Shown here: positions 2,245 through 9,033 of the stretch, one piece after another
Layout: each line of letters begins with the position of its first letter
How positions within the stretch are numbered: the stretch's first letter is position 1
Assembly: GCA_021295715.1 (NCBI GenBank)
Contig: JAGWBV010000052.1
Location: 603 to 40,587, forward strand
DNA: 39,985 nucleotides
Direction of reading: 5' to 3'
Source of the DNA: Candidatus Poribacteria bacterium
GTDB lineage: Bacteria > Poribacteria > WGA-4E > WGA-3G
Position numbers and translations under genes: made by a program
The notes under the pieces: generated by a model
Databases searched by the model: none
Told to the model about the DNA's origin: nothing
Seen by the model: the letters and a program-made list of their open reading frames with translations, nothing else

Positions 2245-4587
2245 ATGAAACGCATTTACACACTACTTGTGTTCGTTATGGGGGGCTGTATCGTCTGTGG
2301 TGCTGCATCAGCACAAGAGGCGTGGATGCCGGATGAGAACTTGCAACAGGCAGTGCGCAAGAAACTCGGAATTCCTGAACACATTCCGCTAATACCCCCA
2401 GAGATTCATCGCCTGCATGATCTTGTGAGTATAAATGAAGGTATTAAGAATGTACAGGGCTTGGAACACGCTATAAATCTTAGCTTTTTGCATATCGCCC
2501 CGGCTGAAGTCTCTGACCTAACACCCCTCGCGGGACTACTCTCATTAAAGACTTTAAAGTTATACGGCAATAACATTTCGGATATCACACCGCTTTCAAA
2601 CTTAACTGCCTTGAAGCACCTCCAACTGCACGATAACCAGATTACCGACTTAACACCCTTAACTCATTTAACAAACTTGGAAGAGTTAACTATTGCTGGA
2701 AACCCTATTGCTGATTTTAGCCCGCTTGCCAAATTTCCACATTTTGCCCATCTTATTCCTACTGTGATTGAGATACCGGATCCGACCCTCCAACGAGTTA
2801 TTCGAGAAAAACTTGGACTACCAGCAAAAATACCATTAACGGATGTAGAGATGCGTCGACTTGGGGATTTGGTAGTTTTAGAGTCTGAGATAGCGAATCT
2901 TCAAGGATTAGAGCATGCTGTAAATCTCCATTTTTTACATTTGAGTAGCAGTCGGATTGTTGACCTTACACCGCTCGCGAACTTAGTGTCATTAGAGGTG
3001 CTAAAACTCTACGACAATGGGATTTCGGATATTACGCCGTTGACAAACTTGACGAATTTACAGGCACTCAATTTGTCTGGAAATCAGATTACGGATGTAG
3101 CACCTATCGCAAATTTGGTTAATCTCAAAGTGTTGATGTTAGGAGATAACCCGATTACGGACTATAGTTCTATCAGTGGGTTGTCTGGTGTTGATTTCGG
3201 TTACTGCGAAATACCGAGAGTTAGCACGATAGATAGGGTTAAAAATAGGAATTATCCATCTATCTTCTCGGCATGGCACAATATTATAAACCTCCCGACC
3301 TTATCTTATTTGGAACGCCTTGCCTATCACGATCTACACTTTTGCTGTCCTCTGTTCGGGCTTAGCTTTGCAGAGACCGAACAGGGTGTAAAATTAGTTG
3401 GGGACTTGAGAGCGGCGAGAAACCAACGTGATACGCTCTTGGAACAGAATCCAAACATGCTATTCCTCGTTGGCATTTACTATTATGGTGTGCATCCAGA
3501 TACGTTTCCTGAAGATTGGCCGTATTGGTTAAGAGACGAGAACGGCAATCGTGTCCAAGATGTTGGATGGAGTGAATTGCTTATTGATTTCACAATCCCC
3601 GAGGCACAAGATTTTTTTGTTCAGCAGGCTGTCGCAGTTGCTGAATGTGGTCTCTATGACGGTATTTTCTTCGATTGGTGGAGCGAAGAATGGAATGCAC
3701 TCTACAACCGCGAAACAGGAAAACGCTATTACGACCTTGAAGTAGAAGTGAACGCGAAGGTTTCAATACTCCGTCGTATCCGTGAAGCTGCTGGGGACGA
3801 TTTTCTAATCCTTGTCAACACAAATCGCAGTCAGGTCCCGCGCTCAACTCCTTACGTAAACGGGACCTTCATGGAAACCTTGCGGGATTACGAGGGTGGC
3901 TACACATACGCTGGACTTTCTGAAATTGAAAGTACATTGTTATGGTCAGAAGAAAATTTCCAATATCCTCAAATAAACAGTTTGGAAGGTTGGGGAATTG
4001 AAGCCGAACCACTTGATAGTTTAGCAAACCGTCGTTGGATGCGTCTATTTACGACGTTAAGCCTGACACATTCCGATGGTTATGTCCAGTATGTTTCTGG
4101 TATCAGCAGTACAATACATACTCACGTCTATGAAATTTGGAAAGGACATTCAACCGAGCATGCCCGTGGTGAAATCCACGACCACCAACATCACCATTAC
4201 TATTACGACTTCTGGGATGCTGACCTCGGACAACCTATTGGCGAAAAGGCACAACGCTACCAAAACCGAGATGGCTTATTTATCCGCGAGTTCACAAACG
4301 GTTGGGCAGTCTATAACCGTAGTGGTGCTCCCCAAGCTATTCAATTATCAGAACAGGCAACAGGTGTAGAAAGTGGTTTACGTAACACCCTTCATATCCT
4401 CCCTGACTTAGATGGCGAAATCTACCTGAAAAGAACGACCGATAGTCACGATGTCAATGCGGACGGTATTGTGAATATTTTAGATTTGGTTGCTGTGGCA
4501 AATGCGTTTGGCAAAAATGCGCCAGATGTGAATGCGGATGGGGTCGTCAATATTTTGGATTTGGTGGCGGTCGCAAACGCCTTTTGA
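2245..4587 (+). CDS. secreted LRR / TIM-barrel-like / dockerin protein
   Basis: 780 residues from the ATG at 2245, which follows GAGGAAG and begins a clear signal peptide (MKRIYTLLVFVMGG...AASAQ, cleavage near 24). An ATG 19 codons upstream lies inside the preceding gene and would bury the signal. Residues 27-330 hold two ~150-residue units, each an N-terminal cap (PDxxLQxxxRxKLG) plus internalin-type leucine-rich repeats (L..L.L..N.I.DITPL). Residues ~335-640 look like a TIM-barrel glycoside-hydrolase-like domain (LVGIYYYG, YDGIFFDWWSEEW near 473, LILVNTN). The C-terminus has two dockerin-like repeats (DVNADGIVNILDLVAVANAFG and a near copy). The product is probably exported and surface attached. 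The catalytic activity and any cohesin partner are unknown. It starts 10 bases after the TPR gene and is probably cotranscribed with higB. Confidence 0.85.
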   Translation: MKRIYTLLVFVMGGCIVCGAASAQEAWMPDENLQQAVRKKLGIPEHIPLIPPEIHRLHDLVSINEGIKNVQGLEHAINLSFLHIAPAEVSDLTPLAGLLSLKTLKLYGNNISDITPLSNLTALKHLQLHDNQITDLTPLTHLTNLEELTIAGNPIADFSPLAKFPHFAHLIPTVIEIPDPTLQRVIREKLGLPAKIPLTDVEMRRLGDLVVLESEIANLQGLEHAVNLHFLHLSSSRIVDLTPLANLVSLEVLKLYDNGISDITPLTNLTNLQALNLSGNQITDVAPIANLVNLKVLMLGDNPITDYSSISGLSGVDFGYCEIPRVSTIDRVKNRNYPSIFSAWHNIINLPTLSYLERLAYHDLHFCCPLFGLSFAETEQGVKLVGDLRAARNQRDTLLEQNPNMLFLVGIYYYGVHPDTFPEDWPYWLRDENGNRVQDVGWSELLIDFTIPEAQDFFVQQAVAVAECGLYDGIFFDWWSEEWNALYNRETGKRYYDLEVEVNAKVSILRRIREAAGDDFLILVNTNRSQVPRSTPYVNGTFMETLRDYEGGYTYAGLSEIESTLLWSEENFQYPQINSLEGWGIEAEPLDSLANRRWMRLFTTLSLTHSDGYVQYVSGISSTIHTHVYEIWKGHSTEHARGEIHDHQHHHYYYDFWDADLGQPIGEKAQRYQNRDGLFIREFTNGWAVYNRSGAPQAIQLSEQATGVESGLRNTLHILPDLDGEIYLKRTTDSHDVNADGIVNILDLVAVANAFGKNAPDVNADGVVNILDLVAVANAF

Positions 4588-8103: not shown

Positions 8104-8436
8104 ATGCCGACCGAAGCGGAACTTTACGATGCCGCACTCACCCATTTTGCTGAAAACGACCTCGAAGCGGCTGTTAATGGTTTTAAAGAATTGATTGAAA
8201 CTTACCCAGACTATATCGAAGGATTCCTTGGGCTCGGACACGCCTATGAACGGATGAGTCTATACGATGAAGCCATTGAGGCTATCCAGAAGGCGATAGA
8301 AATCAACCCGAAGGATCCACTTGTATATACCAGTCTGTCCATGTGTTACCAACGAAAAGGGATGATCCAAGAGGCAGAAGACGCGATGGCAAAGTCGCAG
8401 GAACTGCAGATGGAGGTGTCCCGTTCATCCACATGA
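8104..8436 (+). CDS. small TPR protein
   Basis: 110 residues made almost wholly of tetratricopeptide repeats: about 3-36 (AELYDAALTHFAENDLEAAVNGF), 37-70 (IEGFLGLGHAYERMSLYDEAIEAI) and 71-104 (PLVYTSLSMCYQRKGMIQEAEDAM). No signal peptide or extra domain. It is a protein-protein scaffold of unknown partner. It has its own promoter and RBS (AAAGGACACAAAAG-ATG), and the selenoprotein gene follows 60 bases later. An overlapping longer frame (7934-8194) is not real. Confidence 0.85.
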   Translation: MPTEAELYDAALTHFAENDLEAAVNGFKELIETYPDYIEGFLGLGHAYERMSLYDEAIEAIQKAIEINPKDPLVYTSLSMCYQRKGMIQEAEDAMAKSQELQMEVSRSST

Positions 8437-8471: not shown

Positions 8472-8496
8472 TGCAACAAAATATTGAGGTTTTCCT

Positions 8497-9033
8497 ATGC
8501 CAAACACGACTTTACTCGATCCAACCTCTCAAGGCGATGCATCAGCGAAATTTCTCTCGCCACGGCTTGAGAGTTTTGATGGAAAAGTGATGGGCTTATT
8601 GAACATCACGAAAAACGGTAGTGATATTTTTCTTGACCGCATTGCTGAATTAATGAAGGAACGATTTGATCTTGCCGAAGTAATTCACGTTAAAAAACCG
8701 ACGTTCACGCGTCCCGCGCCGACGGAACTGCTCGTCGAACTGGCGGAGCAAGTAGATTTCGTCATTGAAGGACTTGCCGACTGAGGGTCCTGTATATCGT
8801 GCAGTATGCACGATGGAAGTGTTTTAGAGGAACGCGGGGTGCCAAGTGTCGCTGTTTGTACGGAAGTCTTTTTCGCAGCAGGCAAAGTGCAAGCACGTGT
8901 ACTCGGTCATAGCGAATTGGAACCGCTCACCGTTCCGCATCCAATCCAGAGTCTGACACCGGATCAGATTCGGGAGCGCGCAGAGGGTGCCGTGGAAGAA
9001 ATTGTTGCACGGTTGACAAAGAACGGTGAGTAA
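8497..9033 (+). CDS. UGSC-motif selenoprotein (Sec at TGA 8782-8784)
   Basis: An ORF of 95 codons ends at TGA and a second in-frame stretch of 82 codons follows with no other stop. Read through, they give one 178-residue protein with ...EGLAD-U-GSCISCSMHDG..., the U-G-S-C motif of the UGSC family of (seleno)proteins, where Cys replaces Sec in many homologues. Sec96 and Cys99 form a U-x-x-C redox-type pair, with a further C102. The codons after TGA continue a coherent domain (LEERGVPSVAVCTEVFFAAG), so this is not a chance extension. A hairpin suited to a bacterial SECIS follows the TGA. RBS: GAGG seven bases before the ATG. Function in the family is unclear; a redox or detoxification role is an inference. 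Automatic annotation would split it into two genes. Confidence 0.87.
8785..8814 (+). promoter_or_regulatory. bacterial SECIS-like hairpin
   Basis: ATCGTGC (8796-8802), loop AGTAT, GCACGAT (8808-8814): a perfect 7-bp stem starting 11 bases after the TGA. The apical loop begins about 19 bases after it and has G as its second base. Those distances and the early loop G match known bacterial SECIS elements, which recruit SelB to recode UGA. No selA, selB or selD lies in the window. Confidence 0.75.

Follow-up and report, generated by a model that had tools for sequence, protein, structure and literature searches.

D-Proline reductase, PrdA/PrdB, is a two-protein arrangement in which the selenocysteine (Sec) subunit carries a UxxC motif. 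UGSC selenoproteins were reported in the GOS study of 2008, which suggested a thioredoxin-like fold for them and mentioned a UGSC/Unknown_1 fusion (PMC2398784), and they are also listed in reviews of 2022 and 2026. The family has been known since at least 2008, is uncharacterised, and gains one member with the poribacterial gene described here. The new point is its almost constant association with one particular partner protein, an indication of a two-part enzyme; this link is not described in the passages of the UGSC literature that were examined.

The window, i.e. the whole stretch of 39,985 nucleotides that was analysed, contains the UGSC gene and the following associated features.

8104-8436, plus strand: gene for a TPR-repeat protein of 110 aa, upstream neighbour of the UGSC gene, conserved in Poribacteria
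8486-8489, plus strand: GAGG, Shine-Dalgarno-like, 7 nt 5' of the ATG, from direct reading of the sequence
8497-9033, plus strand: gene of a UGSC-family selenoprotein of 178 aa, ending in TAA, with matches to PF24696 and NF041046
8782-8784, plus strand: in-frame TGA, predicted Sec96 of U-G-S-C-x-x-C, from the frame translation and kept in homologues
8796-8814, plus strand: SECIS-like hairpin with a 7-bp stem (8796-8802/8808-8814), loop AGTAT (8803-8807) and frozen synonymous codons

Translated with readthrough, the frame at 8497-9033 contains exactly one TGA, at residue 96, and yields a protein that reads MPNTTLLDPT...VIEGLAD-U-GSCISCSMHDGS...LTKNGE. The predicted Sec motif is U96-G-S-C99-I-S-C102, embedded in ...EGLAD-U-GSC-IS-C..., whereas without readthrough the list of open reading frames shows only the 95-aa first part of the frame. 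The protein matches PF24696 with 168 bits (cut-off 25) over positions 2-171 of 172 and NF041046 with 158 bits (cut-off 125) over 2-147 of 147. The first-pass annotation, made from the letters of the window, had assigned the gene to the UGSC family, placed the TGA exactly at the U of the motif and described the frame as open and coherent on both sides of it, all of which agrees with these results; it mentioned neither the earlier cataloguing of the family nor the partner gene. TGA also serves as an ordinary stop in the window, as had been noted, and ends other open reading frames at 4585-4587 and 8434-8436. With the described UGSC family the locus shares the full-length match above both cut-offs, the UGSC motif with its putative Sec and a hairpin past the UGA. 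As far as sequence can tell, 8497-9033 is confirmed as a genuine gene with one UGA predicted to be read as selenocysteine; Sec insertion into the protein itself we infer. The TPR-repeat gene at 8104-8436 is conserved just 5' of UGSC in Poribacteria only, and we make no claim that it belongs to the enzyme.

The UGSC gene was found in 63 of 85 Poribacteria genomes, with near full-length copies that have TGA at the site. TGA occupies the Sec codon in all 59 poribacterial homologues compared and in all 80 named public loci, from several phyla, that were kept of 227 in a scan of public genomes. The expectation had been Cys or Sec at this position; neither Cys nor an unrelated residue occurs at the site among the 80 public loci kept, and the refutation by an unrelated residue that the first-pass annotation had named therefore fails. 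The closest public record, OX639992.1, has 97% protein identity. A scan of viral contigs found no UGSC relatives. The segment past the TGA has a dN/dS of 0.04-0.08, a strong purifying selection that is to be expected if this segment is translated. In principle, a lone TGA might be an artefact of a metagenome-assembled genome, and the codon might be an ordinary stop that arose in a Cys-type gene through a sequencing error or a recent nonsense mutation, a view that no result obtained here supports. Homologues from several phyla carry TGA at this codon without exception (59/59 and 80/80), which, together with the frozen codons of the hairpin described below, speaks against this explanation; on comparative grounds it is already refuted and retains a negligible probability.

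The arms of the hairpin, ATCGTGC and GCACGAT, form seven perfect pairs, and G is the second base of the loop. As originally described, the stem is perfect, the loop has an early G and the structure begins 11 nt past the TGA. With a distance of 18 nt from UGA to loop, a 7-bp stem and a 5-nt loop it lies inside all bSECIS limits (16-37 nt from UGA to loop, loop of 3-9 nt, stem of 4-16 bp; PMC13188914), and its loop has the G that a bSECIS should show within the first two bases. Among synonymous recodings of the same peptide, 1.4% have a perfect stem at that place and 3.4% some SECIS-like hairpin; the peptide itself favours such a structure, and its occurrence in one sequence is therefore not decisive. 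Folding energy was likewise rejected as sole proof, as synonymous recodings fold equally well in 6% of cases.

What is decisive in taking the hairpin as more than chance is its conservation rather than the folding of a single sequence. Of 88 windows compared in an alignment of 58 homologues, the one formed by its five codons ranks lowest in synonymous entropy (0.03, against a mean of 0.67 over all codons). Of the 59 homologues from Poribacteria, 58 have Ser at codon +5 and all of these use TCG, although this amino acid has six codons; the neighbouring positions are similarly fixed (+6 TGC, 58/59; +7 AGT, 59/59; +9 CAC, 59/59), while codons beyond the hairpin vary freely. The only change of a pair in the stem core, in L089, is a TGC to TGT substitution matched across the stem by GTG to GTA, both synonymous, which converts C:G to T:A. 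The core CGTGC-nnnnn-GCAYG is also present in Rokubacteria, Binatota, Acidobacteriota and Proteobacteria. Judged by these codon patterns, the hairpin is under selection at the RNA level. Upstream of the TGA, GAC at codon -1 (8779-8781) is found in 59/59 homologues and GAA at codon -5 (8767-8769) in 58/59, even though the synonymous codons occur at other positions; both are possibly part of the recoding context.

The source genome (G000; 5.14 Mb, 175 contigs, 96% complete) contains selB (C54:29721-31616; 349.6 bits, cut-off 242) and a Sec-type selD on contig C29 (L020:1483-2526; 359.5 bits, cut-off 125). This selD has its own in-frame TGA at the active site (CAG-U-ASKL) and is a second selenoprotein gene. 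No match to selA above the cut-off was found in the assembly; two weak matches to the selA model, L010 and L011, are other SelA-like PLP enzymes below the cut-off and were rejected. The gene is present in 72 of the 85 relatives, and the selA region of one of them, G083, maps to contig C150 of the source genome, which starts 2.7 kb from selA. The absence of selA is thus probably explained by an assembly gap, the assembly breaking 2.7 kb away.

The order selB-selC-lipA is conserved, with selC just 3' of selB. In the source genome the tRNA-Sec scores 39.5 bits against RF01852 (cut-off 47), with its 3' end missing in the assembly; the best RF01852 match is a tRNA-Leu and was discarded. The selC gene (C54:31679-31784; L023:9680-9785) is the same as in relatives through GGTTCG and then continues with the sequence just upstream of lipA. 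Thereby it lacks ~16 nt at its 3' end, along with the spacer, and ~120-190 bp are absent in comparison with G066 and G083. No other copy of the selC 3' end was found in the assembly. An intact tRNA-Sec of about 75-79 bits was recovered from 34 of the 37 other genomes of the genus; in G078 a contig ends inside the tRNA-Sec, and in G050 and G061 the selC region was not found. From the sequence, the truncation may be either a real deletion or an assembly error. On the same contig, two signal-peptidase-like genes that lie upstream of selB are separated by an insertion (L023:5756-6894), which resembles a fragmented IS200/IS605-type tnpB and has a masked stretch of N inside.

Were the selC 3' deletion real, Sec decoding would have just been lost in this genome, the UGA would terminate translation and only a 95-residue fragment would be made. 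The jump after GGTTCG into the upstream sequence of lipA, with ~120-190 bp gone, the lack of a second 3' end and the position of selA outside the assembly are in line with such a loss; however, selA falls in an unassembled stretch next to the start of C150, the break in G078 indicates that tRNA-Sec is a gene that breaks assemblies, and decay is seen neither in selB (dN/dS 0.06-0.08, equal to the value between two relatives with intact selC) nor in UGSC past the TGA (0.04-0.08). Any loss would have to be very recent, as selB has not decayed, and we regard it as unlikely. These gene comparisons give good support to Sec decoding of UGA in the lineage. The first-pass annotation, which had attributed this decoding to the organism and named the four sel genes as its test, holds in that sense and for selB and selD; for the source genome by itself, with selA probably in the gap and selC 3'-truncated in the assembly, the case for Sec decoding is formally incomplete. 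The absence of sel genes from one assembled genome is consequently a poor refutation of Sec decoding, and there is a practical trap in that standard gene calling truncates the UGSC protein, while selC may be broken and selA missed when a metagenome is assembled.

The partner is a protein of ~310-360 residues, encoded in the source genome at C46:22725-23549 (L247:2115-3053, minus strand). Outside Poribacteria its gene immediately precedes UGSC, in the same orientation, in 25 of 27 loci (within L212-L238), within about 200 bp in 24 of the linked loci and at 1.1 kb in L235. The two genes are separated in most Poribacteria, G024 and G026 being cases of adjacency, and otherwise nothing essential differs from the family elsewhere. 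Sixty-three of the 85 poribacterial genomes have the partner; 61 have both genes, 20 have neither, and two plus two have one only (Fisher 3.6e-15, uncorrected for phylogeny). Nine genomes within the order are without both genes, and eight of these keep selA, so that the two genes were lost jointly and independently of Sec decoding. A distant UGSC relative in G005 (L099, G005:C955:642-1079 and on), with the motif U-S-T-C and a TGA at the Sec site, shares one frame with the partner and is probably the UGSC/Unknown_1 fusion mentioned in PMC2398784. In some Acidobacteriota and Proteobacteria a Trx-like N-terminal domain is fused to the partner. This domain aside, the partner matched no Pfam or NCBIfam family; no NCBIfam reductase model matched it and a sequence search of the PDB gave no relative. 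Its invariant residues include Cys80, the sole invariant cysteine (in NAVMAGC), His103 and His256. The predicted structure has low confidence (pLDDT 68.5), and fumarase-like structural matches of this model were set aside as weak (E 1.2e-3, TM 0.25). Operon structure, fusion and shared gain and loss establish a genomic linkage of partner and UGSC; their co-occurrence does not prove a complex.

In the AlphaFold2 model of UGSC (pLDDT 90.5, pTM 0.85), which has a parallel alpha/beta fold, Sec96 follows strand 88-94 and precedes helix 97-112; the invariant Cys99 follows three and Cys102 six residues past Sec96. A sequence search of the PDB gave no real match, and Foldseek and VIA-align returned only generic alpha/beta folds for UGSC, the best with Z of about 10-11 among many unrelated rows, for which reason no function was read from them. 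The modelled fold does not support the Trx-like fold suggested in 2008 (PMC2398784), although the PDB matches are generic; thioredoxin proteins are not among the best matches listed. That earlier suggestion, together with the Trx-like domain of certain acidobacterial and proteobacterial partner proteins, would suit a stand-alone thioredoxin-like redox protein for which the link to the partner is incidental. Given a confident model that is Rossmann- or flavodoxin-like, with no thioredoxins among the best PDB matches listed, and a partner that immediately precedes UGSC in 25/27 loci and disappears together with it, we hold this to be quite improbable.

The GrdB model is matched weakly by 25 of 47 UGSC proteins (best E 8.5e-4). 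The likeness to GrdB (TIGR01917; GrdF NF040794) is a local match at the Sec-x-x-C segment, in which UGSC 82-157 aligns to positions 333-402 of the GrdB model, and GrdB too is a Sec subunit that may act with a larger partner; unlike GrdB, UGSC does not have the N-terminal ~330 positions. The window protein scores 17.1 bits against TIGR01917 (cut-off 602.2) and 12.1 against TIGR01918 (65.45), below both cut-offs, and an assignment as a GrdB was rejected since the score is far below that of the family. Their local similarity may reflect a remote relationship. The arrangement that we propose for UGSC, two proteins of which one is a UxxC Sec subunit, would be analogous to PrdA/PrdB; PrdB differs in that a match to it is found in only one of 19 UGSC members (E = 0.09).

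We consider it very probable that the gene encodes a UGSC selenoprotein made via SelB and the hairpin, and that this protein is likely the Sec subunit acting with the partner in GrdB/PrdB-like chemistry. The ribosome would read the UGA at 8782-8784 as Sec with the aid of SelB, which would bind the hairpin that follows, giving a compact alpha/beta (Rossmann-like) protein with Sec at the start of a helix. UGSC, from the genomic comparisons, is most likely the subunit that carries Sec in a redox enzyme made of two proteins, the second of which would be the ~310-360-residue partner. By analogy with GrdB/PrdB reductases, the partner would present a substrate or cofactor to the attacking selenolate, which Cys99/Cys102 would then reset. 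The formation of a complex, its chemistry and its substrate are what we infer from these comparisons.

Naming the accompanying gene provides a concrete pair for expression and assay. On balance we favour the view that UGSC and its partner constitute a new class of two-subunit selenoenzyme, distantly related to GrdB-type reductases and with a different substrate, which would then span Poribacteria, Rokubacteria, Binatota, Entotheonella, Acidobacteriota and Proteobacteria.
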